A stretch of DNA of 64,000 bases, taken from the NCBI RefSeq assembly GCF_010093025.1, contig NZ_CP048114.1, positions 1,550,001-1,614,000 on the forward strand, in the 5' to 3' direction. A program made the translations under genes and the position numbers. This document shows, in pieces, positions 32,110 through 45,547 of this stretch. The stretch is from Edaphobacter sp. 12200R-103. GTDB lineage: Bacteria > Acidobacteriota > Terriglobia > Terriglobales > Acidobacteriaceae. The stretch's first letter is position 1, and each line of letters opens with the position of its first letter. The notes below the pieces were generated by a model that was not told where the DNA came from, did no database searches, and worked only from the letters and a program-made list of their open reading frames with translations.

Positions 32110-32763
32110 CTACTTCTTCCCTGCCTGAAATTCCCTGACGATCGCCATATACTTCTTTGCGCTCTCGGTCACGATCTCGGGCTTGCCCTCGGCCATCGCC
32201 TTGGTGTTCACCAGGTCGGCACCGACGCCGAGCGCAAAGGCTCCGGCATCGAGGAAGCTCTTTGCCGTTTCCAGCGAGACGCCGCCGGTCGGGATCATCT
32301 CCACCTGGGGCAATGGAGCCTTCAGCGAACTGAGGTACTTCGCTCCGCCCATCGCGCTGGCCGGGAAGATCTTCACCACGTCGGCGCCAGCCTCCCAGGC
32401 CGTGATCACCTCGGTCGGAGTAAGGGCGCCCGGAAGCGCAGCGATGGAGTAGCGATGGCACATCTCGATGGTCTTGATGTTCAGCGCCGGGCTGACGACA
32501 AACTTTGCGCCCTCGAGGATGCAGGCCCGAGCTGTCTCGGCGTCGAGCACCGTGCCTGCGCCGATCAGCAGGTCGGGACGCTGCTCCGCCAGCTTGCGCA
32601 TCACCTGGATCGCGCCGGGAACGGTCATCGTGACTTCCATTGCCGTAACGCCGCCAGCGGCAATTGCCTCTACCAGCGCCAGCGCCTTGTCGACTGACTC
32701 GGCCCGAAGCACCGGAACCAGTCCAATCTGTTTCAATGAAGCCAATACAGCGGCTTTCGTCAT
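32110..32763 (-). CDS. eda: KDPG aldolase (2-keto-3-deoxy-6-phosphogluconate aldolase)
   Basis: A 217-residue TIM barrel with the Schiff-base lysine Lys131 (GADVVKIFPAS), the general-acid Glu43 (TAMEVTMT), the phosphate-binding GGV at IPTGGVS and the GAGTVLD loop. It splits KDPG into pyruvate and glyceraldehyde 3-phosphate in the cytoplasm. It is the last gene of kduI-kdgK-eda; a 79-base gap carrying a strong hairpin separates it from kdgK. Confidence 0.97.
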   Translation of the reverse strand: MTKAAVLASLKQIGLVPVLRAESVDKALALVEAIAAGGVTAMEVTMTVPGAIQVMRKLAEQRPDLLIGAGTVLDAETARACILEGAKFVVSPALNIKTIEMCHRYSIAALPGALTPTEVITAWEAGADVVKIFPASAMGGAKYLSSLKAPLPQVEMIPTGGVSLETAKSFLDAGAFALGVGADLVNTKAMAEGKPEIVTESAKKYMAIVREFQAGKK

Positions 32764-32842: not shown

Positions 32843-33952
32843 CTACCGCTGAACGCGAGCGCCGCCGCCCTTCATCACGCGCTGCACCTCGTCGAAGGTT
32901 GCCATCGTCGTGTCGCCGGGGGTCGTCATCGCCAGCGCGCCATGAGCACAGCCACAGTTGACCGCCCAGTCAGCGCCCTTCTCGTTGAGGAAGCCGTAGA
33001 TCAGGCCCGAGGCGAAGGAGTCGCCGCCGCCGACGCGATCGAAGATCTCGAGATCAGGCATCGGACGAGCCTCGTGGAACTGGCCCTCGTAGTAGCAGAC
33101 CGCGCCCCAGTCGTTGACGCTCGCCGTCTTCGCATGACGCAGCGTGGTCGCAACGGCCTTGAAGTTTGGGTAGGTCGCGACGGCTTTCTCGATCATCTTG
33201 CGGAAGTTGGCCGAATCCAGTTCGCCCAGGTCGTCGCCCACGCCTTCGATCTCGAAGCCGAGCGCTGCGGTGAAGTCCTCTTCATTGCCGATCATGACAT
33301 CGACGTACTGTGCAAGATCGCGATTGACCTCGGTCGCCTTCGCCTTGCCGCCGATCGATTTCCAGAGAGAGTCGCGGTAGTTGAGGTCATAGCTGGTGAT
33401 GACGCCATGCTTGCGGGCAGCCACCAGGGCCTCTTTGCAGACCTCAGGCGTCGTCTCACTCAGAGCGCAGAAGATACCGCCGGTGTGGAACCAGCGAGCG
33501 CCTTCCTTGCCGAAGATCTCGTCCCAGTCGATCTGACCCGGCTTGAGTTGCGAGACTGCGGTGTTGCCGCGGTCGGAGCAGCCCAACGCTGCGCGCACAC
33601 CAAATCCGCGCTCCGTAAAGTTCAAACCGTTGCGAACCGTGCGGCCGACGCCGTCATACTTGACCCATTTCACGTGGCTCTGGTCCACGCCGCCCTGGTT
33701 CATGAGGTCCTCGACGAGGCGACCGACCGGATTGTCGGCGAGCGCGGTCACGATGGCCGTCTTCAGGCCGAAGCAGCGGCGAAGGCCGCGAGCAACGTTG
33801 TATTCGCCACCGCCTTCCCACACCTGAAACTGTCGCGTCGTCGCGACACGAACGTCGCCCGGATCGAGACGAAGCATCACTTCGCCCAGGCTGACCAGAT
33901 CCCACTTGCTCTCTTCTTTTTTACGAATCTTTAGACTTGTCGACTCACTCAT
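32843..33952 (-). CDS. kdgK: 2-keto-3-deoxygluconate kinase (PfkB family)
   Basis: A 369-residue ribokinase-fold sugar kinase. The N-terminal GEVMLRLDPGD and sugar-binding GGGEYNVARGL, and the C-terminal catalytic motif DRVGGGDSFASGLIYG with the general-base Asp, are all present. It phosphorylates KDG at O6 for eda downstream. The protein is somewhat longer than the E. coli enzyme (about 309 residues) because of a mid-protein insertion. It begins 6 bases after kduI. Confidence 0.95.
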   Translation of the reverse strand: MSESTSLKIRKKEESKWDLVSLGEVMLRLDPGDVRVATTRQFQVWEGGGEYNVARGLRRCFGLKTAIVTALADNPVGRLVEDLMNQGGVDQSHVKWVKYDGVGRTVRNGLNFTERGFGVRAALGCSDRGNTAVSQLKPGQIDWDEIFGKEGARWFHTGGIFCALSETTPEVCKEALVAARKHGVITSYDLNYRDSLWKSIGGKAKATEVNRDLAQYVDVMIGNEEDFTAALGFEIEGVGDDLGELDSANFRKMIEKAVATYPNFKAVATTLRHAKTASVNDWGAVCYYEGQFHEARPMPDLEIFDRVGGGDSFASGLIYGFLNEKGADWAVNCGCAHGALAMTTPGDTTMATFDEVQRVMKGGGARVQR

Positions 33953-33958
33953 TGTTTT

Positions 33959-34789
33959 CTATCGAAGCTCCGCGATGGCAACGCCATCCATATCGTCATA
34001 CGCCTGGTTTTCTCCGCCCATACCCCAGCAGAATGTGTAGTGCTTCGTGCCGACACCGGCGTGGATGGACCAACCGGGCGACACAACAACCTCTTTATCT
34101 TTCATCACCAGGTGGCTGGTCGCGTCCGGCGGCCCCATCAGGTGAAGCACACGATGCGCGGGATCCACGTCGAAGTAGAAATAAACTTCGCTGCGCCGCA
34201 TGTGCGTGTGCGGTGGCATCGTGTTCCAGTTACTTCCCGGCTCGAGCATGGTGAAGCCCATCACCAGCTGGCAGCTCCGGATGCCTTCCTTGTAGATCGC
34301 CTTGTAGATCTTGCGCTTATTGCAGGTCTCGACCGAACCAAGCTCCACCGGCTTAATGTCTTTAAACTTCACCATCGCGGTCGGATACTGTGCATGCGCG
34401 GGATAGCTGAGCAGGTAGAACTCGGCGGGTTTAGCCGGGTCTTTGCTCGCAAAGCTGACGTTCCTCGAGCAGCGGCCAACATAGAGGCAGTCGAGCTTGT
34501 CCATCTCGAAGGTTTTGCCATCGACGGTAACGGTTCCGGAGCCTCCGACGTTCAGGACCCCAAGCTCACGCCGCTCGAGGAAGAATTCGGCTCGCAGCTC
34601 CGGCTCGGTCTCAAGCTTGAGGGGCGAGACGGTCGGGACGGCCGACCCGATCACCGTGCGATCCAGATCCACGTAAGCGAACTCGATCTCACCGGGTTGG
34701 AAGAAGTCTTCCAGAAGAAACGTCTCGCGCAGCTCTTCCGTGTTCATCAGCCCGTAGCGGACCGAATCTGCCATCTGATACAGCCTCAT
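33959..34789 (-). CDS. kduI: 5-keto-4-deoxyuronate isomerase KduI
   Basis: AGGAG lies just before the ATG at 34789, which gives 276 residues, the family length; the frame extends further upstream without support. The metal site is visible: His194 and His196 (PPHTHMRRSE), Glu201, and His243 (GWSIHAGVG). The enzyme isomerises 5-keto-4-deoxyuronate, the product of unsaturated uronate from pectin, glucuronan or hyaluronan, to 2,5-diketo-3-deoxygluconate. First gene of the kduI-kdgK-eda run and divergent from kduD. Confidence 0.97.
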   Translation of the reverse strand: MRLYQMADSVRYGLMNTEELRETFLLEDFFQPGEIEFAYVDLDRTVIGSAVPTVSPLKLETEPELRAEFFLERRELGVLNVGGSGTVTVDGKTFEMDKLDCLYVGRCSRNVSFASKDPAKPAEFYLLSYPAHAQYPTAMVKFKDIKPVELGSVETCNKRKIYKAIYKEGIRSCQLVMGFTMLEPGSNWNTMPPHTHMRRSEVYFYFDVDPAHRVLHLMGPPDATSHLVMKDKEVVVSPGWSIHAGVGTKHYTFCWGMGGENQAYDDMDGVAIAELR

Positions 34790-35104
34790 CGCATTCTCCT
34801 CAAGGTGCAGCAATTCTCTGCAAAAGCTTCTCTCAGGGGCATAAGACAAGAATATCGTCCCTGTTCGAGCAGGACCTAAGCCATATGCCCTAAAGCGCGT
34901 GCAGCCGGGCCAGGAAAAGCTCGTCATTTCCGGTCCCATCGAAGGCGCCGCTTCGGCGCGGAGATAACCTTCTCACGATACGAGACGGGATTCCGGACCG
35001 TCAATCAATCGCCAATAACCGCACGGGTAGTTTGAACCGCGGATGAACAGCCCATCGACAGGAAATTTGCTGCACAGACGAAGCGGCCTTTAAAGTGACG
35101 ATGT
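34790..35104. other. Divergent promoter region between kduI and kduD
   Basis: This 315-base gap must hold the promoters of both uronate operons. I see one perfect short hairpin, GCGCCG-CTT-CGGCGC (34945-34959), but no recognisable KdgR-type palindrome and no convincing -35/-10 pair. No gene is supported. Confidence 0.5.
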
Positions 35105-35866
35105 ATGCAAAACATCTTCGATCTCTTCCGCCTCGACCAGAAAGTTGCCCTCGTGACCGGCGCCGCCACCGGTATTGGAGCCTCCATCGCTGAAGCACTT
35201 GCCCAGGCAGGCGCCACCGTCGCAGTTCATGGGAATCGCCGTCCCGCGACCGAGACGGCAGAGGCGATCGGCGAGCAAGCTGCGGCATTTCAGGCGGACC
35301 TCTCCTCAACAGCAGGAGCGGAACAGTTGTTTGCCGAGGTAAAGGAGCGCTTCGGCAGGATCGATATTCTGATCAACAATGCCGGGACCATCATCCGCCA
35401 TAATGCAATCGAATATCCGTTGGATGACTGGCAAACGGTCCTGCAGGTCAACCTGACGAGCGTCTTTCAGCTCTCGCAGCTTGCCGGACGCGACATGATC
35501 GCCCGTAACACTCCGGGCAAGATCGTCAACATCGCTTCCCTGCTGAGCTTCCAGGGCGGCATCCGGGTTCCCGCGTACGCGGCCAGCAAGGGCGGCGTTG
35601 CCCAGCTTACCAAGGCACTGGCCAACGAATGGGCACCGAAGGGAATCCAAGTCAATGCGATTGCACCGGGCTACATTTCAACCACGAATACGGAACCTCT
35701 CCAGGCGGACGAGACGCGCAACCGCCAGATTCTGGAGCGGATTCCGGCAGGACGCTGGGGGCAGCCGCTGGATATTGCCGGGGCCGCGCTTTATTTGAGC
35801 TGCTCCGCTAGCGACTATGTAACGGGCACGGTGCTGACAGTCGACGGCGGTTGGATGGGGCGCTGA
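35105..35866 (+). CDS. kduD: 2-dehydro-3-deoxy-D-gluconate 5-dehydrogenase KduD
   Basis: A 253-residue classical SDR. It shows the cofactor motif TGAATGIG (18-25), NNAG (91-94), catalytic Ser145 (VNIASLLSFQGG), Tyr158 and Lys162 (YAASKGG), and the C-terminal DGGWMGR typical of KduD. It reduces 2,5-diketo-3-deoxygluconate to KDG, closing the gap between KduI and KdgK. The start at 35105 has no strong ribosome site but matches family N-termini. A 31-base gap separates it from the small protein downstream. Confidence 0.95.
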   Translation: MQNIFDLFRLDQKVALVTGAATGIGASIAEALAQAGATVAVHGNRRPATETAEAIGEQAAAFQADLSSTAGAEQLFAEVKERFGRIDILINNAGTIIRHNAIEYPLDDWQTVLQVNLTSVFQLSQLAGRDMIARNTPGKIVNIASLLSFQGGIRVPAYAASKGGVAQLTKALANEWAPKGIQVNAIAPGYISTTNTEPLQADETRNRQILERIPAGRWGQPLDIAGAALYLSCSASDYVTGTVLTVDGGWMGR

Positions 35867-36100: not shown

Positions 36101-37180
36101 TTAATCGATTGCCGGAAGCTCGGTACCTCCATGCTCGCTTGAGAGGTAGGCGGCTTCGACGGTTCGCATAGTGTCGATTGCATCTTCGACGCTGGTCGGC
36201 AGTGTATCGGCGTCGCCCTGCACATAGGCCTGCAGTGAGCCCATCGATCCCATGAAGGCGTCGGGGAACCAGTTGCCGCTGATCGGCGCATCTTTCCACC
36301 CGGTGCCGTCGCGCAGGATGTACTGCAGGTTGTCGGGCAGGCCAGCGGGATAGTTCAGGTTGACCCCCATCTGTGCCCGCATCGCACCTGTCATTCCCTC
36401 CCACTGCACGAAGCTTCGCTGCATATGCGGGTCGAAGTCGTGGCTATGGTTGGTCGCGACGAAGGCACGCTTGTCCTCGCCGTAATCCAGGATAATGACG
36501 CTCTTGGTCGCGGCCAGAGCGGGCGTCTGCGGGCTCTTCACCGTCTTTGCATAGACGCGGCGCGGATTCCCGAGCCAGCTTCGGACCAGATCGACGTAGT
36601 GGATGGAGTGGTAAAGGATCTCAAGGCGCGGCGCTGTGCTCAGAAAGCTCCAAAGCTCCCATGGCATGTGGACGCTGACCTTCACTTCCATGTCATGCAT
36701 TTCTCCCAGCGCTCCGGAGGAGGTGATGGCCCGCGCCCCTAGCATATTGGGCGCCCATCGAAGCTGAAAGTTCACCGCCGCGGTCAGCCCTTTGCTGCGA
36801 CAGATGCGAAGGATCTCCGCCGCCTCAGCCAGCGTGTCGCCCATGGGCTTCTGCATCAGAACTGCGCCGCCGTCGGGGAGTTGCGAGAGGATGGACGGGA
36901 GCACCCGGGCAGGTGTAGCGATGTCGAAGATCGCATCTTTGGGAGCAAACCGGATCGCCTCCGCGATAGAGGCGAAGCCGCGTGGGATGTTGAATTCCTT
37001 CGCGAGCGATTCAGCCCTTTCCAGATCGAGATCCACCAGCGTAGCCACAGGAAAGCCAGCCTTGGCATATGCGGGGAGATGCGCGTCGCGCACGATGCCG
37101 CCGGAACCGATCATAATGATGGGACGCGGGGTTCGGGGGCGCGGCGCAGCTGCTGCCCTGACGATCGATTCCAAATCCAT
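36101..37180 (-). CDS. Gfo/Idh/MocA family oxidoreductase
   Basis: Starting at 37180 (AAGAGG 8 nt upstream) gives 359 residues. The Rossmann N-terminus (IIMIGSGGIVRDAHLPAYAKAG) leads to the LMQKPMGDTLAEA stretch carrying the family E/Q-K-P motif, here Gln-Lys-Pro rather than Glu-Lys-Pro. A C-terminal alpha/beta dimer domain follows, with HSIHYVDLVRSWLG. Such enzymes oxidise or reduce sugars or sugar acids with NAD(P). It converges on kduD and its small neighbour, so a role in uronate or related sugar-acid use is likely but not proven. No export signal. Confidence 0.88.
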   Translation of the reverse strand: MDLESIVRAAAAPRPRTPRPIIMIGSGGIVRDAHLPAYAKAGFPVATLVDLDLERAESLAKEFNIPRGFASIAEAIRFAPKDAIFDIATPARVLPSILSQLPDGGAVLMQKPMGDTLAEAAEILRICRSKGLTAAVNFQLRWAPNMLGARAITSSGALGEMHDMEVKVSVHMPWELWSFLSTAPRLEILYHSIHYVDLVRSWLGNPRRVYAKTVKSPQTPALAATKSVIILDYGEDKRAFVATNHSHDFDPHMQRSFVQWEGMTGAMRAQMGVNLNYPAGLPDNLQYILRDGTGWKDAPISGNWFPDAFMGSMGSLQAYVQGDADTLPTSVEDAIDTMRTVEAAYLSSEHGGTELPAID

Positions 37181-37301
37181 CCAGAAGACCTCTTTTACCG
37201 ATTCAAATTCAATTCTATTCCCCAAAGTAATGCCATTGTTGCGCATGGCATCCGAAGACCACCGGTTGCGTGCTGCGATGGCACCTCGTACCCTACCAGA
37301 G

Positions 37302-38060
37302 ATGTCCTCTGCGCTCGAACTCGCCCTGCTCTCCTGCGCTCTGCTGGGCCTTCGTCATGGGTTCGACTACGATCACCTGGCAGCCATTACGGACATCACG
37401 AGCGTGCAGCGGACCTGGCGCGAAGGCATGCGGCTGGGCCTTCTGTATGCGCTGGGGCATGCGTTGACGGTGGCTGTTCTCGGAGCCGCCGTGATCTTCC
37501 TGCACCTCGGGCTTCCGAGAAATATGGATGCCGTTGGCGAGCGCCTGGTCGGCGCTACGCTGATCGTACTTGCGGTTTACGTGCTCATCAGTTTCTTCCG
37601 CCGGCCTTCGCCTGAAGCTCATCGCCACGCTGTTCCTGTCAGCCGCATTGCCCTGCTGGTCTCAGCGGCTCAGTTTGCGGGATGGAAGCTGCGTTCGCTA
37701 CGGAACCCGGATCTGCCGCGGCCTGAACCCTTTCGCTTTCGCTATGACCAAAGCTCGGTTGTGCTGGTCGGCATTGTGCACGGTCTGGGCGCGGAGACGC
37801 CATCGCAGCTTCTTCTCTTTCTGCTGGCAGCAAACCTGGGCGGCACCAGCCGCGGATTTCTCGGATTGTTGTGCTTTATCGCCGGGCTGCTGGTGATGAA
37901 CACCATCATGACGGCGTCCGCATCCGGCATCTTTGCCAGAAGTACCCATCGTCCCAGGCTGCAGATGTTCATTACGTCGCTGACGGCCGCGTACAGCTTT
38001 GTCATCGGCGCGATCTTTCTCTTCGGCATGAGCGATAAACTGCCGGCGCTGGTGCGGTAG
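37302..38060 (+). CDS. Nickel/cobalt transporter-like membrane protein (HX4DH motif)
   Basis: The C-terminal 252 residues of a long open frame form a compact six-helix protein; the part upstream overlaps the divergent oxidoreductase gene and is a shadow. Helix 1 carries His19-x4-Asp24-His25 (LRHGFDYDHLAAI), the nickel-binding signature of NiCoT and UreH/HupE-like carriers, and a second GIVHGLGAETPSQ loop follows in the second half. It heads a gene run containing larE, larC and larB, all of which need nickel delivery, so nickel uptake (not efflux) is the probable role. Alternative starts are 37230, 37245 and 37278. Confidence 0.78.
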   Translation: MSSALELALLSCALLGLRHGFDYDHLAAITDITSVQRTWREGMRLGLLYALGHALTVAVLGAAVIFLHLGLPRNMDAVGERLVGATLIVLAVYVLISFFRRPSPEAHRHAVPVSRIALLVSAAQFAGWKLRSLRNPDLPRPEPFRFRYDQSSVVLVGIVHGLGAETPSQLLLFLLAANLGGTSRGFLGLLCFIAGLLVMNTIMTASASGIFARSTHRPRLQMFITSLTAAYSFVIGAIFLFGMSDKLPALVR

Positions 38061-38099
38061 CAACATCTCTGCCGCCGCGGCATCCACTACACTCGAGCT

Positions 38100-39110
38100 A
38101 TGCTTCGTGTTCCTTTTGCCGATCTTTTTGCGATGCTGGAACGAGCCATGCTGCGGCTCGGATTTCCCCCGGAGGCAGCACGGCTCTCTGCGCGCTTATT
38201 TGCGGAGACGACGCGCGATGGAGTGTATTCGCACGGTCTGAATCGCTTTCCCCGTGTGGAAGCCATGGTGGCCAATGGCAGCATCGATGTCCATGCCAGA
38301 CCCCAGCGTACGGCAGCGTTCGGCTGCATCGAGCGCTGGAATGGCAATCGCGGCATCGGCAACGTGAATGCCTATCTCGCCATGCAGAGGGCCGTTGAGC
38401 TGGCTCGCAAAGATGGAATGGGAGCGGTTGCCATGGCCAACTCGAATCATTGGATGCGGGGCGGTGCCTTTGGCTGGCAGGCGGCCGACCAGGGCATGTT
38501 TGCTATATGTTGGTCGAACACCCTGGCAAACATGCCTGCCTGGGGCTCAACCGAGCCTACGCTCGGCAATAATCCGCTGGTGATCGCGGTTCCGCGGGCA
38601 GATGGGCGGCACGTTGTTCTCGATATGGCGATGAGCCAGTTCTCTTATGGCGCACTCGCGTCCTATGCAAAGCGGGGAGAGCCTCTTCCCTTGCCCGGTG
38701 GATTCGATGAGCAGGGCCGGCCGACCCAGGATGCTGCCGCGATTGAGGCTTCGCAACGGCCATTCCCTATCGGCTACTGGAAGGGTTCCGGACTCTCTCT
38801 CGTTCTGGACATGATGGCTGCCATGCTGTCGGGAGGACTGGCAACCTATCAGCTTCCCCTGGAACCCACGCTGGAAGCGGGGCAGTCCCAGATCTTTCTC
38901 GCGATCGATCCCTCGAACATCGCATCTGTTGCTGAACTGAATCACATCGCCGACGCCATCCTGCAGCATCTGCACGATGCAAAGCCTGAAGATTCAGGCC
39001 GGCCTGTCCGGTATCCGGGAGAGCAAACGCTTCACGTTCGCGAAGAAAATATGCGTCTTGGGGTTCCGGTCGATCCCGAGCTGTGGCAGAGGCTCAACTC
39101 GCTGGGATGA
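38100..39110 (+). CDS. dlgD: Ldh2-family dehydrogenase, YiaK/DlgD-like (2,3-diketo-L-gulonate reductase)
   Basis: A 336-residue NADH-dependent Ldh2/MDH-fold enzyme. The stretches ETTRDGVYSHGLNRFPR, ANSNHWMRGGAFGWQAAD and PFPIGYWKGSGLSLVLDMMA match E. coli YiaK/DlgD closely, including the catalytic His of SHG. That enzyme interconverts 2,3-diketo-L-gulonate and 3-dehydro-L-gulonate. Ldh2 members also include malate, ureidoglycolate and sulfolactate dehydrogenases, but YiaK is the best fit by eye. It lies between the nickel transporter and larE, so its substrate may be one that the nickel-cofactor enzyme produces. Confidence 0.85.
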   Translation: MLRVPFADLFAMLERAMLRLGFPPEAARLSARLFAETTRDGVYSHGLNRFPRVEAMVANGSIDVHARPQRTAAFGCIERWNGNRGIGNVNAYLAMQRAVELARKDGMGAVAMANSNHWMRGGAFGWQAADQGMFAICWSNTLANMPAWGSTEPTLGNNPLVIAVPRADGRHVVLDMAMSQFSYGALASYAKRGEPLPLPGGFDEQGRPTQDAAAIEASQRPFPIGYWKGSGLSLVLDMMAAMLSGGLATYQLPLEPTLEAGQSQIFLAIDPSNIASVAELNHIADAILQHLHDAKPEDSGRPVRYPGEQTLHVREENMRLGVPVDPELWQRLNSLG

Positions 39111-39163
39111 GGCCATTCACAGATCGCGATGCGTTCCATTAGCATCTACGGAGAGACAGGCTT

Positions 39164-40003
39164 ATGAATCTTGCCGGAAAACGCGCCCTGCTGGATACCA
39201 CGCTTCGTGAACTGGGAAGTGTGATGATCGCCTATTCGGGAGGCACGGATTCAGCGTTTCTGGCGTGGGCAGCTCACCAGGCTCTGGGCGAGAAGATGCT
39301 TGCGGTCATCGCCGATTCGGCCTCGCTTCCGCGTGCGGAGCTGGCAGCAGCGCTCGCCTTCACTGCGCATCACGGCATCCCCACACATATTCTGCTGACC
39401 GAAGAGCTTGAGAACCCCAACTATCAGCGTAACGACGCGCAACGCTGCTTTCACTGCAAGGACGAGCTCTTCACCCGCATGGAGGCAGAGCGTGCAGCGC
39501 GTGGATTCCGTCATCTGGCGTATGGGATGAATCTCGACGATGGCGGCGAATTTCGTCCAGGCCAGCAGGCTGCATCGCAGCATCAGGCTGTCGCTCCTCT
39601 GGTAATGGCGCAGCTGACCAAGTCGGAGATCCGTCAACTGGCTCACGAGGCCGGACTGGAGCTGTGGGACAAGCCCGCCTCGGCCTGCCTCTCTTCGCGG
39701 ATTGAATATGGCCGCCCGGTAACGCGCGAGAGCCTCAGTCAGGTAGAGCGTGCGGAAGAGGCTTTGCATGGACTCGGATTTCTGCAGGTCCGCGTGCGGC
39801 ACCATGGCAATCTGGCCCGGATTGAGATCGCGCGCGCGGACCTTCCACGCGCGCTGAGCATGGACGTGCTCGATAGCATTACGGATGCCGTGCGCCGGGC
39901 TGGTTTCGTCTACGTCACGCTCGATACTCAGGGCTACCGTTCCGGCTCGATGAACGATGTCCTGCCAGCCTCGGCCATCACCCCTGCCCGCGTGAAACAA
40001 TAG
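39164..40003 (+). CDS. larE: LarE, ATP-dependent sacrificial sulfur transferase
   Basis: A 279-residue PP-loop enzyme (SGGTDS at 25-30) that adenylylates pyridinium-3,5-biscarboxylate mononucleotide and donates sulfur. The conserved cysteine Cys175 in KPASACLSSRI is in the position of L. plantarum Cys176, which gives up its own sulfur to become dehydroalanine. Two further cysteines (Cys95 and Cys98, RCFHCKDE) are also present. It is five bases before larC and acts after LarB in nickel-pincer-nucleotide cofactor synthesis. Confidence 0.95.
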   Translation: MNLAGKRALLDTTLRELGSVMIAYSGGTDSAFLAWAAHQALGEKMLAVIADSASLPRAELAAALAFTAHHGIPTHILLTEELENPNYQRNDAQRCFHCKDELFTRMEAERAARGFRHLAYGMNLDDGGEFRPGQQAASQHQAVAPLVMAQLTKSEIRQLAHEAGLELWDKPASACLSSRIEYGRPVTRESLSQVERAEEALHGLGFLQVRVRHHGNLARIEIARADLPRALSMDVLDSITDAVRRAGFVYVTLDTQGYRSGSMNDVLPASAITPARVKQ

Positions 40004-40008
40004 CTGCC

Positions 40009-41334
40009 ATGCGCATTGCTTATCTTGACTGCTTTGCCGGTGTCAGCGGCGATATGTTTCTCGGAGCCCTGGTTAGCGCTGGCGTTCCCGCAGATGTGCT
40101 TCATCAGGCTGTAGATGTTCTGAACGTGGGAGCGTCGCTTGAGATGGGCACGGTAGATCGCAGCGGCATCTCCTCGACCAGCGTGCGGGTGCTTGAGGCT
40201 GGAAGGCCGGCTGACCAGGCGACGCATTCGCATTCTCACGCCGAGCAACATCACCCTTATCACGATGACCATCAGCATGCTCACTCGCATGAGCACAGCC
40301 ATACGCACTCGCACAATCATGAACATTCCCACAGTCATGAACACGAGCATCACGAGCACGCGCATGGGCGCTCCCTTTCGGCCATTCGCAAGCTGATTGA
40401 AGCGGCGAAGCTGCCCGATGCCGTCAAGCAGACCGCCATTCACGCCTTTGAGCTGCTTGGCGCGAGTGAGGCGAAGATTCACAACGTCGACATCGAGAAG
40501 ATCCACTTCCACGAAGTAGGCGCCGTCGATGCCATCGTCGATATCGTGGCCGCGAGCGCGGGCATTCATGCGCTTGGCGTAAACGCCTGGTACTGCTCCC
40601 CGCTGAATGTGGGGGGCGGCATGGTCGATTGCGCACACGGGTGCTTCCCTGTCCCCGCACCTGCGACGGCCGATCTGCTGCGCGATGTACCGACCTACTC
40701 CGCACACGTCCAGCAAGAGTTGGTGACGCCGACCGGAGCTGCTCTGATCCGTGCAATCTCTCCAACCTTCGGGCCTCAGCCTGCCATGCGGGTGCAGAAC
40801 ATCGGCTACGGTGCAGGCACCCGTAATCCCAAGGACTTCCCAAATGTGTTGCGGCTCTCCGTCGGCGAGACGGCAGGCGCCAGCCACTCCGCAGTGGCCG
40901 TGCTGGAAACAGCAGTGGACGACATCTCTCCCCAGATTCTTGCGTATGTTACGGAACGCGCGCTGGCTCTTGGCGCACTCGATGTAATGTCGACCGCCGT
41001 GCAGATGAAGAAGGGACGGATGGGAACGCACCTGACGGTTCTTGCTGACGACGCAAAGGTTGCGGCGCTCGAAGACCTGCTGCTGCGCGAGACCAGCACG
41101 CTCGGCGTACGGATTCACCACGAGCGCCGCTCCTGCCTGGACCGCGATCACGTCACCGTGACCACACCCTACGGCGAGATTCGCATGAAGATCGGATCGC
41201 GTTCCGGCGAGATCTACAACGTGGCTCCTGAGTTTGAAGACTGCAGGCTCGCTGCGGAGGCCAAAGGCGTTCCGGTCAAGGTGGTCCAGCAGAGTGCGAT
41301 CGCAGCCTACCAGGCGCAGCAGGGCTCCAAATGA
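40009..41334 (+). CDS. larC: LarC, nickel-inserting cyclometallase, single-ORF form with His tract
   Basis: A 441-residue CTP-dependent nickel insertase. The N-terminal LarC1 part opens with IAYLDCFAGVSGDMFLGAL; the C-terminal LarC2 part includes METAVDDISPQIL-type sequence (residues about 300-315) and KKGRMGTHL. Residues 73-119 are a metal-binding tract with 23 His in 47 residues, interleaved with Ser and Glu. In L. plantarum larC1 and larC2 are joined by a programmed frameshift; here one unbroken frame encodes both. It overlaps larB by four bases (ATGA). Confidence 0.95.
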   Translation: MRIAYLDCFAGVSGDMFLGALVSAGVPADVLHQAVDVLNVGASLEMGTVDRSGISSTSVRVLEAGRPADQATHSHSHAEQHHPYHDDHQHAHSHEHSHTHSHNHEHSHSHEHEHHEHAHGRSLSAIRKLIEAAKLPDAVKQTAIHAFELLGASEAKIHNVDIEKIHFHEVGAVDAIVDIVAASAGIHALGVNAWYCSPLNVGGGMVDCAHGCFPVPAPATADLLRDVPTYSAHVQQELVTPTGAALIRAISPTFGPQPAMRVQNIGYGAGTRNPKDFPNVLRLSVGETAGASHSAVAVLETAVDDISPQILAYVTERALALGALDVMSTAVQMKKGRMGTHLTVLADDAKVAALEDLLLRETSTLGVRIHHERRSCLDRDHVTVTTPYGEIRMKIGSRSGEIYNVAPEFEDCRLAAEAKGVPVKVVQQSAIAAYQAQQGSK

Positions 41335-42086
41335 ACCGCAATCGCCTACTCGAGCTTCTGTCTTCGGTCGAACGCGGCGAGTTGAGCGTCGAAGGCGCCC
41401 TGGATCGCCTCACGCATCTGCCGTTTGAAGACGTCGGGCATGCTCGTATTGATCATCACCGGACCCTGCGGTCGGGATTGCCCGAGGTGATCTATGCCGC
41501 AGGCAAAGCTCCAGAGCAGACGGCAGAGATTTTCACCCGCATGGCGGCGGCCGGCTCGGATGTCCTGGCGACCCGTGTCGACGAGGCCACCGCGGAGCTT
41601 GTCCTGAAGGCTGTGCCCCAGGCGATTCACCATTCACTGGCCCGCTGCATCAGTCTGCGTCAAAGCAGTGACGCGCCGCTCGGTAAAATTGCCGTACTCT
41701 GCGCGGGCACCAGTGACCTGCCCGTTGCTGAAGAAGCAGCGGTTACTGCCGAACTATTCGGAACTTCCGTCACACGACTCTACGACGTCGGCGTGGCAGG
41801 GCTTCACCGGCTGCTCGCAGTCCGCGAGCAACTTCGGGACGCCAGCGTTGTCATCGTCTGCGCGGGGATGGAGGGCGCTCTTCCCTCCGTCGTCGGAGGC
41901 CTCGTTGGAGCCCCCGTCATTGCGGTCCCCACCTCGGTCGGGTATGGGGCCAGCTTTCAGGGAGTTACGGCCCTGTTGGGCATGCTCAACTCCTGCTCGC
42001 CGAACGTGACCGTGGTCAATATCGACAACGGCTTTGGAGCAGCCTACAGTGCGACACTGATCGCGCGAGCCGGCCACTTGCGCTAA
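41331..42086 (+). CDS. larB: LarB, NaAD carboxylase/hydrolase
   Basis: A 251-residue protein whose C-terminal half has the AIR-carboxylase (PurE-like) fold (GKIAVLCAGTSDLPVAEEAA then CAGMEGALPSVVGGLVGAPVIAVPTSVGYGASF). LarB makes pyridinium-3,5-biscarboxylate mononucleotide from nicotinic acid adenine dinucleotide, the first step of the nickel-pincer cofactor. It completes the biosynthetic set larB-larE-larC in the gene order E-C-B. Confidence 0.95.
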   Translation: MNRNRLLELLSSVERGELSVEGALDRLTHLPFEDVGHARIDHHRTLRSGLPEVIYAAGKAPEQTAEIFTRMAAAGSDVLATRVDEATAELVLKAVPQAIHHSLARCISLRQSSDAPLGKIAVLCAGTSDLPVAEEAAVTAELFGTSVTRLYDVGVAGLHRLLAVREQLRDASVVIVCAGMEGALPSVVGGLVGAPVIAVPTSVGYGASFQGVTALLGMLNSCSPNVTVVNIDNGFGAAYSATLIARAGHLR

Positions 42087-42137
42087 GCTACTCGCGAGGA
42101 AAACCACTCCATTCCAAGGGGAGGCATCCAAAACGGT

Positions 42138-43160
42138 ATGCTCCGCCGCGACTTCATCAAATCTGCAAGCGCCACCGGAATCGCAGCCTCGGTTCCATTC
42201 GCCCAGGGACAGTCACAACCGTCTTCATCGATGAAGCCTGCCACCCGGCCAGAGGCTCCCGACATGATCTACCGCGAGCTGGGCACGACCGGCGAGCGTG
42301 TCTCCGCCATCGGTCTGGGAGGAGCTCATCTCGGAGGAGGCCCGGACGCAGCGTCGAAGATCCGTCTCGCACGCTCTGCCATTGATCACGGCATCACCTT
42401 TCTGGACAACTGCTGGGACTACAGCGACGGACTGGCCGAAGTTCGCATGGGACAGGCGCTGCGCGATGGATATCGCAGTAAAGTCTTCCTGATGACCAAG
42501 ATGGACGGGCGCAACAAGGAGACCTACAACAAGCAGTTGGAGCAGTCGCTTGGCCGCCTGCAGACCGACATGATCGACCTGGTGCAGTTCCATGAGATCA
42601 TCCGCATGGAAGACCCGGACCGCATCTTTGCCCCCGGCGGCGCGATGGAGGCAGCCGTGGAAGCCCGCCAGGCAGGAAAGATTCGCTACATCGGCTTCAC
42701 GGGACATAAGGATCCGGCTGTTCACCTGCGCATGCTGGAGATGGCCCAAAAGCACAATTTCCACTTCGACACCGTGCAGATGCCGATCAATGTCATGGAC
42801 GCTCACTTCCGTTCGTTCACCCACGAGGTCCTGCCCGTTGCGGTGAAGCAAGGCATCGGCGTGCTGGCAATGAAGACTTTTGGAGGCTCCTACATCCTCA
42901 ACAGCAAGACGGTCGAACCGATGGATGCCCTCCACTACGGGCTCACCCTGCCAATCTCTGTCCTGATTACAGGCATCGATTCGGAGAAGATTCTCGATCA
43001 GGCGCTGACAGCAGCCAAAACTTTCAAGCCTCTCTCTGAATCTCAGGTCGCTGCAATATTGGCGAAGACCAAGGATGCAGCCAGCGAAGGCAGGTACGAG
43101 CTCTTCAAGACATCGAATCGCTTCGACGGAACGGCGGCGAATCCGAAATGGCTCGGCTGA
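42138..43160 (+). CDS. Tat-exported aldo/keto reductase
   Basis: The 340-residue protein begins with a twin-arginine signal (LRRDFIKSASATG) followed by an AKR barrel. The start of the barrel (TTGERVSAIGLGGAHLG) and the catalytic set Asp-Tyr (FLDNCWDYSDG), Lys (LMTKMDGR) and His (VQFHEI) are present. Export of an NADPH enzyme is unusual; a periplasmic enzyme would need a bound cofactor or the signal may serve another role. It follows larB by 51 bases and so belongs to the nickel-cofactor run. Substrate unknown. Confidence 0.85.
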   Translation: MLRRDFIKSASATGIAASVPFAQGQSQPSSSMKPATRPEAPDMIYRELGTTGERVSAIGLGGAHLGGGPDAASKIRLARSAIDHGITFLDNCWDYSDGLAEVRMGQALRDGYRSKVFLMTKMDGRNKETYNKQLEQSLGRLQTDMIDLVQFHEIIRMEDPDRIFAPGGAMEAAVEARQAGKIRYIGFTGHKDPAVHLRMLEMAQKHNFHFDTVQMPINVMDAHFRSFTHEVLPVAVKQGIGVLAMKTFGGSYILNSKTVEPMDALHYGLTLPISVLITGIDSEKILDQALTAAKTFKPLSESQVAAILAKTKDAASEGRYELFKTSNRFDGTAANPKWLG

Positions 43161-43173
43161 GGGTTCCGCTGAT

Positions 43174-43464
43174 ATGATCGAAGTTATGACACAGCTGGAT
43201 GTCCTGTACCGGTACGGTGTGCCACCGACGGAAGCAAGTATGCTTGCCCTGTCCAGGGTGCGTGAGGTCTATGGCGTTCGAGCGCTTATGTTTGACGAAA
43301 AGAATAAGACGGTTCGCGTGGAGTACGACGCCACCCGCCTGAATGAACCGATGATCCACCAATTGCTGCGCCGCGCCGGGCTTGATCTGGTGGAGCGCGT
43401 TACCCTGTACACTGTGCCACCGCCACCGGAGACGCAGCCGACCGTTGCGCCGACGGCGAAATAA
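43174..43464 (+). CDS. HMA-like small protein without the CxxC motif
   Basis: A 96-residue protein whose predicted order beta-alpha-beta-beta-alpha-beta (QLDVLYRYG, then an Ala/Leu-rich helix, VRALMFDEKNKTVRVEYDA, EPMIHQLLRRAG, LVERVTLY) is that of the ferredoxin-like heavy-metal-associated fold. The usual metal-binding Cys pair is missing and there is no cysteine at all. The tail is Pro/Thr-rich. It is the last gene of the lar run, 13 bases after the aldo/keto reductase. ATG at 43186 is an alternative start. The function is inferred only from the fold and neighbours. Confidence 0.7.
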   Translation: MIEVMTQLDVLYRYGVPPTEASMLALSRVREVYGVRALMFDEKNKTVRVEYDATRLNEPMIHQLLRRAGLDLVERVTLYTVPPPPETQPTVAPTAK

Positions 43465-43472
43465 TGTCATGT

Positions 43473-43549
43473 GCGCCTGTAGCTCAGCTGGATAGAGCAA
43501 CTGGCTTCGAACCAGTAGGTCGGGAGTTCGAATCTCTCCGGGCGCACCA
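43473..43549 (+). tRNA. tRNA-Arg (anticodon UCG)
   Basis: 77 bases with encoded CCA. The acceptor stem GCGCCTG/CGGGCGC pairs fully (one G-U), the anticodon arm is ACTGG-CTTCGAA-CCAGT so the anticodon is TCG (reads CGA and CGG), and the TTCGAAT T-loop is canonical. It differs from the second tRNA-Arg at 45471 at only four positions. Confidence 0.95.
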
Positions 43550-45470: not shown

Positions 45471-45547
45471 GCGCCCGTAGCTCAGCTGGATAGAGCAACT
45501 GGCTACGAACCAGTAGGTCGGGTGTTCGAATCACTCCGGGCGCACCA
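45471..45547 (+). tRNA. tRNA-Arg (anticodon ACG)
   Basis: 77 bases with encoded CCA, acceptor stem GCGCCCG/CGGGCGC, anticodon arm ACTGG-CTACGAA-CCAGT (anticodon ACG, read as inosine after deamination, for CGU/C/A) and TTCGAAT T-loop. It is 73/77 identical to the tRNA-Arg(UCG) 2 kb upstream, with a compensatory T-stem change. Confidence 0.96.

Follow-up and report, generated by a model that had tools for sequence, protein, structure and literature searches.

The 64,000-nucleotide stretch analysed here (the window) spans bases 1,550,001-1,614,000 of the Edaphobacter sp. 12200R-103 genome, a single contig of 4,554,841 bases, and contains at 37302-43464 a plus-strand operon of seven genes that includes a complete biosynthesis set for the nickel-pincer nucleotide (NPN), with LarB, LarE and LarC each scoring above curated cut-offs. 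The first gene (37302-38060) encodes a NicO-superfamily membrane protein (Pfam NicO 36.4 bits, cut-off 27.7) with the HX4DH motif in the form HGFDYDH. It is followed by a YiaK/DlgD-type 3-dehydro-L-gulonate 2-dehydrogenase of the Ldh_2 family (38100-39110; NCBIfam NF009750 414 bits, cut-off 316) and by larE (39164-40003; TIGR00268 307 bits, cut-off 150), which encodes an ATP-dependent sulfur transferase of the CxxC...C type. The nickel insertase gene larC (40009-41334) holds LarC1 (216 bits, cut-off 90) and LarC2 (144 bits, cut-off 50) in a single frame together with a His-rich stretch, and larB (41331-42086; NF033503 293 bits, cut-off 175) encodes the pyridinium carboxylase/hydrolase. The operon is completed by an aldo/keto reductase (42138-43160; Pfam Aldo_ket_red 112 bits), whose twin-arginine (RR) leader was read by eye, and by a small, weakly HMA-like protein (43174-43464). 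From 5' to 3' the intergenic gaps measure 39, 53, 5, -4 and 51 bp, then about 13 bp with the ATG at 43174 taken as the start of the small gene, and the seven genes are probably transcribed as one unit. The three LarE cysteines (Cys95, Cys98 and Cys175) were invariant in 30 sequences from larC-positive loci, the window included, and in 12 from loci lacking a detectable LarC, which are described below. No LarA, the candidate user of the cofactor, is encoded inside the operon. Edaphobacter modestus (L057) and strain TAA 166 (L058) have the seven genes in the same order, so the arrangement is not a matter of chance. An earlier reading made from the letters of the window (the sequence-only reading) had described a seven-gene nickel-pincer operon without LarA, and the open reading frames (ORFs), the family scores and this recurrence all bear it out.

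The same reading had placed LarA elsewhere in the genome. A Pfam Lar_N search of the genome did return three matches, all above cut-off (P0004, P0005 and P0006). P0006 (653 bits) and P0004 (574 bits) pass the NCBIfam model for a 'nickel-dependent putative hexonate epimerase' (NF052594, LarA group 18; cut-off 500), and P0005 passes 'NPN isomerase group 22' (466 bits, cut-off 400). A lactate racemase role was rejected, the lactate racemase model being passed by none of the three. We refer to LarA of the P0006 and P0004 kinds as P6-type and P4-type, and aligned sequences from 21 P6 genomes with those from 21 of 26 P4 genomes and one further genome (G162). The catalytic residues D72, H108, H174 and K298 and the NPN ligands R75, K184 and H200 are all kept in P0006, P0004 and 41 aligned relatives. 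The residues E, V, A and H at LarA positions 175, 176, 358 and 359 are the usual residues of GntE enzymes, the D-gluconate 2-epimerases of LarAH groups 18-20 (PMC11770544). They correspond to E153, V154, A346 and H347 in P0006 and do not vary among the aligned sequences, 21 of the P6-type and 22 of the P4-type, those of this genome included. PMC11770544 assigns functions on its LarA tree by such selectivity residues, and its Figure 2 may already call P6-type and P4-type proteins GntE. At E <= 0.001, 4NAR of Thermotoga maritima (GntE2) is the sole relative of P0006 with a solved structure, and the best one of P0004; it aligns with P0006 at 107 bits and has the same catalytic, cofactor and signature residues, except for a change of V to S. 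The 4NAR enzyme has been shown to epimerise D-mannonate, and for group 18 LarA a hexonate substrate was merely hypothesised in the same 2020 paper (PMC7583248).

The P0006 larA lies at 1,351,027-1,352,304 on the minus strand, about 235 kb from the window operon, in a minus-strand operon with the order larA-uxaE-gntK-SDR-HAD hydrolase (L006 10304..4929; SDR, short-chain dehydrogenase/reductase). Its uxaE (Pfam UxaE 168 bits, cut-off 27) and gntK (TIGR01313 166 bits, cut-off 114) were assigned above cut-off. The best models for the SDR include KduD, gluconate 5-dehydrogenase and D-mannonate oxidoreductase, none above cut-off. A 6-phosphogluconate dehydrogenase gene (gnd) is present in the genome. 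When the neighbours of LarA were mapped, as the sequence-only reading had proposed, P0006 was thus found among uronate genes and not with lactate metabolism. Visual inspection of the predicted ORFs beside P0004 and P0005, without a family search, revealed no uronate or lar genes. Between larA and uxaE the P0006 operon is interrupted by a plus-strand gene (L006 8446-8955), whose product ends in VPEPGTLLLLGTG, a C-terminal motif that we take to be PEP-CTERM-like. Two successive ORFs, L002 686-1117 and 1240-2742, share their opening ~43 residues, including HPERSPKGVVEGS, and for this reason the true start of P0005 is probably further in than the ORF start.

To place the two operons in context, gene order was compared across 150 genomes of the order (this one included), 126 of which were positive for LarC and 112 for the P0004 query; 35 are of the same genus, which appears to be Edaphobacter. 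P6-type LarA occurs in 78 of the 150 genomes, among them 34 of the 35 of the same genus, and LarC was found in all 78. In 24 of the 34 same-genus carriers, P6-type larA is at most 16 kb from larC; the present genome is not among these 24. The 19 linked loci that were read (L137-L155) all contain the SDR gene and larA, with uxaC in 18, gntK in 15, uxaE in 11 and a PfkB-type kinase in four, and the larA-side genes stand on the strand opposite to larE-larC-larB. In five of ten other same-genus genomes whose larC side was read (L201-L210), the lar operon sits in a kdu cluster, just as it does in the window. It retains SDR-gntK-uxaE neighbours in G053 and G146, which have larA on another contig, and has neither kind of neighbour in the G010 stretch; larE is located elsewhere in G055, and in G119, which is without P6-type LarA, larE-larB adjoin SDR-gntK-uxaE. 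The cofactor and client operons are therefore apart in the lineage of the present genome and neighbours in most sampled congeners; which of the two arrangements is the older we can only infer. Across the order, uxaE adjoins P6-type larA in 44 of the 62 genomes that have both, and a LarA match was obtained in 85/85 uxaE-positive genomes compared with 27/65 uxaE-negative ones. One further genome (G125) has larE-larC-larB-uxaE and larA in one run (L221 5941-12662), its larA carrying GntE motifs by eye and being 29% identical to P0006.

Collectively, these results suggest, with a probability that we put at roughly three in four, that the window operon makes NPN and that its main client is P0006, which would interconvert D-mannonate and D-gluconate in uronate breakdown. 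The presence of two hexonate-epimerase-type LarA proteins, one of them (P0006) in a uronate operon and of a type that 24 of 34 same-genus carriers have near larC, agrees with the earlier suggestion that the cofactor serves a sugar-acid racemase or epimerase. In the proposed scheme, LarB would carboxylate the precursor, LarE would add sulfur and LarC would insert nickel to give NPN, the metal plausibly being provided by the NicO protein and the His-rich stretch of LarC. UxaC and UxaE would isomerise uronates, the SDR would reduce the product to D-mannonate, and P0006 would convert D-mannonate to D-gluconate, which would leave the route as 6-phosphogluconate. For T. maritima, a route has been proposed that leads from uronate through tagaturonate/fructuronate, D-mannonate and D-gluconate to 6-phosphogluconate (Rodionova 2012, via PMC7583248 and PMC6978723). 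The substrate and direction given here for P0006 are those to which its gene context points. The nickel cofactor probably helps this bacterium to make use of sugar acids, for example those found in pectin. The best support for mannonate as substrate, and for a link of LarA to DlgD, comes from a distant acidobacterium (L127 4982-10969), in which uxaE, a D-mannonate oxidoreductase (371 bits, above the cut-off of 281), a kinase, a GntE-like larA and DlgD stand in a row; the LarA has GntE motifs by eye and is below the group 18 cut-off (238 vs 500).

Several observations weigh against this assignment. The genome has a ManD mannonate dehydratase (NF043051 716 bits, cut-off 550), found in a scan of seven of the 13 enolase-superfamily matches above cut-off; inspection by eye of the predicted ORFs around it showed no uronate genes. 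It also has a relative of UxuA (Pfam PF03786 147 bits, cut-off 23.7; best-matching stretch at profile positions 166-351 of 352), which falls below both curated NCBIfam models (104.9 vs 191 and 83.5 vs 199.6). Given ManD and this distant UxuA relative, mannonate may be drained without LarA, and the presence of ManD rules out that LarA has fully taken over from mannonate dehydratase in this genome. The SDR of the P0006 operon scores below the fructuronate/mannonate cut-off (231.5 vs 281), uxaC is unlinked, at 758,122, and the two further LarA homologues could be clients. Outside the genus, larA is near larC in just one of 44 P6 genomes, many of which are in many contigs. The linked genomes are moreover relatives of one another, so the linkage counts are not independent.

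The presence of ManD also bears on the possibility that the enzyme works in reverse or on another hexonate, taking gluconate to mannonate and on to 2-keto-3-deoxygluconate (KDG), or handling epimers of altronate, gulonate or idonate, perhaps with DlgD taking the product. DlgD directly after larA in L127 would fit this, as would the UxuA-family matches above the Pfam cut-off in 15 of the 35 same-genus genomes, the present one included. Strong UxuA (>300 bits) accompanies a PfkB kinase in three of five genomes compared with gntK in one of 25 (Fisher p = 0.009, uncorrected for relatedness). The comparison covered 30 genomes in which a single kinase type was clear (G114 and 29 of the same genus) and left out G055, which has both kinases, and five linked genomes; its p value overstates the independence of related genomes. 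Strong UxuA is nonetheless confined to four of the 35 same-genus genomes, and the genes near larA in the 19 loci read, uxaC (18), gntK (15) and uxaE (11), fit conversion of mannonate to gluconate, so that we regard a reverse or different reaction as unlikely. Somewhat less probable still is a route in which GntK first phosphorylates mannonate and LarA epimerises 6-phosphomannonate to 6-phosphogluconate, as in Lactobacillus suebicus, where mannonate is phosphorylated before epimerisation (Valk 2020, PMC6978723). The membership of gntK in the P0006 larA operon would suit such a kinase-first order. P0006, however, bears the E, V, A and H of GntEs, which were assayed with unphosphorylated mannonate, and a PfkB-type kinase replaces gntK in four of the 19 loci. 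It is improbable, finally, that the cofactor is mainly for P0005 or P0004 and its uronate link incidental. P0005 does pass the group 22 model and P0004 the hexonate model, but the larA repeatedly near larC in the genus is the P6-type, and the by-eye inspection around the other two genes recognised neither uronate nor lar genes. We therefore retain P0006 acting on D-mannonate and D-gluconate as the favoured assignment.

The sequence-only reading had further suggested that DlgD and the aldo/keto reductase act on the LarA product, and this was not established. We compared 30 same-genus larC-side stretches (the 19 linked loci, the ten others and the window), whose upstream reach varies, making absences soft. 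DlgD stands beside lar genes in 12 of the 30 and so does, in 20, the aldo/keto reductase, which in several relatives separates larC from larB. The reductase is thus a frequent member of lar operons. DlgD as an obligatory lar partner was rejected, being near lar genes in only those 12 stretches. Of 301 DlgD loci the best 80 were inspected, and nine of these have lar biosynthesis genes within the stretch, several stretches being short; in four stretches without lar genes (L061 and L064-L066) DlgD follows kduD. A link between DlgD and LarA is possible, since in the uronate operon of L127 a GntE-like larA is followed directly by DlgD. For the first gene of the operon, earlier called NiCoT-like, the HX4DH motif (kept in 7/7 relatives checked) and the Pfam NicO assignment stood, and the NixA/HoxN models TIGR00802 and NF052500 were failed (34.6 vs 333 and 39.9 vs 450 bits); the gene probably serves nickel or cobalt uptake, here presumably of nickel. 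For the small protein, 66-80% identical in five relatives, the earlier label of HMA-like is weak: a role as an HMA metal chaperone was rejected, since it scores 18.9 bits against a Pfam cut-off of 24.8 and has no CxxC and indeed no Cys.

Upstream of the operon lie further genes of uronate metabolism. A divergent Gfo/Idh/MocA oxidoreductase (36101-37246, minus strand; Pfam 39.9 bits) is the immediate neighbour and has the same position in L057-L060 and L063. Beyond it are a KduD-like SDR of the uronate pathway (35105-35866, plus strand; TIGR01832 332.5 bits) and, on the minus strand, kduI for 5-dehydro-4-deoxy-D-glucuronate isomerase (33959-34939; NF002091 396 bits, cut-off 250), a PfkB-type, KDG-kinase-like kinase (32843-33952; Pfam PfkB 89 bits) and eda for KDPG/KHG aldolase (32110-32763; TIGR01182 200.5 bits, cut-off 156). 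The uronate neighbours named in the sequence-only reading were therefore secured for kduI and eda; kduD falls just under its cut-off of 338.85, and the gene read as kdgK passes no NCBIfam cut-off. Downstream, a tRNA-Arg (TCG) gene at 43473-43549 begins 9 bp past the last stop of the operon, and a second tRNA-Arg (ACG) lies at 45471-45547. A nickel/cobalt riboswitch was looked for and rejected, as an Rfam scan of 28000-52000 returned two tRNAs only.

The most novel part of the findings concerns P4-type LarA in genomes without a detectable LarC. P4-type LarA (59-90% identical to P0004) was found in 26 of the 150 genomes of the order and, at E <= 1e-130, in one carrier outside it (G162) among 396 genomes of a phylum sample. 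Four carriers, all of the same genus, have a full LarC. Seven carriers belong to another family of the order, and six of these match the C-terminal part of LarC alone. In 15 P4-type genomes there was no LarC match with PF01969 and none with the window LarC below E = 0.01; the best E value with the latter query was 0.012 and seven of the 15 gave no match at E <= 10, whereas in that search the four same-genus genomes with LarC gave 1e-106 or better. All 15 nevertheless have LarB (E < 1e-80) and LarE (E < 1e-84), their listed completeness is 98-100%, and four are single contigs. In 13 of the 15, larB starts at most 3 kb from larA, and the order larA-larE-larB was seen in all 12 of these loci that were read, five of them headed by uxaE. 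These five (L157, L158, L162, L167 and L176, from G032, G037, G047, G098 and G147) have uronate genes with uxaE-larA(P4)-larE-larB, LarC being undetectable. Decay of LarA in the LarC-less genomes is argued against by the conservation of its cofactor and catalytic residues. Apart from LarC, which inserts nickel, no nickel insertase is described in the examined parts of PMC7583248, PMC12611868, PMC11770544 and PMC11796402, and LarA users without LarC are described neither in the Results sections of PMC7583248 and PMC12611868 nor in the examined parts of PMC11770544 and PMC11796402. We tentatively suggest, from these gene contents, that P4-type hexonate-epimerase LarA might work with a pincer cofactor finished without LarC, through either a replacement insertase or an unmetallated or differently metallated nucleotide. 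A LarC too diverged for detection in these genomes is possible. Among related observations, L181 757-2058 is an ORF of 433 residues with a LarC match limited to residues 246-414, at its tail, and L182 1489-1950 is a free LarC2-like ORF of 153 residues. Two genomes of another genus (G012 and G022) encode, next to SDR genes, a LarA in which GntE motifs were seen by eye (L222 5584-6858 and L223 15755-17026), and gave no LarB, LarE or LarC match above cut-off.

These comparisons offer, from gene context, a concrete substrate for LarA group 18, which NCBIfam names only as a putative hexonate epimerase, and they would connect uronate use in Acidobacteriota with a rare organometallic cofactor. They also explain an orphan cofactor operon by gene-order comparison, and the genomes that keep LarA, LarB and LarE without a detectable LarC raise the question of how, or whether, nickel enters the pincer.

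Among known systems, the window dehydrogenase resembles YiaK/DlgD in passing the curated 3-dehydro-L-gulonate 2-dehydrogenase model, and differs in lying in a lar/kdu setting and not in a yia operon, the setting of YiaK in Escherichia coli. The LarBCE pathway of Lactiplantibacillus plantarum is likewise represented here by LarB, LarE and LarC, all above cut-off. Unlike in L. plantarum, the window LarC is encoded in one frame with a His-rich stretch, the operon is without larA, and LarE has the CxxC...C pattern of the T. maritima enzyme, in which it binds a [4Fe-4S] cluster (PMC9283937). In other genomes, including many cyanobacteria, larBCE likewise occurs without larA (PMC11796402), just as no larA stands beside the window operon; LarA homologues are, however, encoded in this genome. 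Acidobacteriota are named among the carriers of LarA homologues (PMC11770544). The hybrid galacturonate route of L. suebicus shares UxaC, UxaE, a fructuronate reductase and the exit at 6-phosphogluconate with the route proposed here, and differs from it in phosphorylating mannonate before epimerisation, with no genes assigned there to those two steps (PMC6978723). The closest parallel in enzyme and pathway is GntE2 of T. maritima (LarAH20, PDB 4NAR), which has catalytic and cofactor residues and a proposed step in the hexuronate network in common with P0006, whereas P0006 belongs to group 18, matches 4NAR at 107 bits and comes from a different phylum. Compared with the T. maritima route, which also uses UxaE, an SDR stands in the place of the reductase, and the cofactor genes are here in a separate operon.

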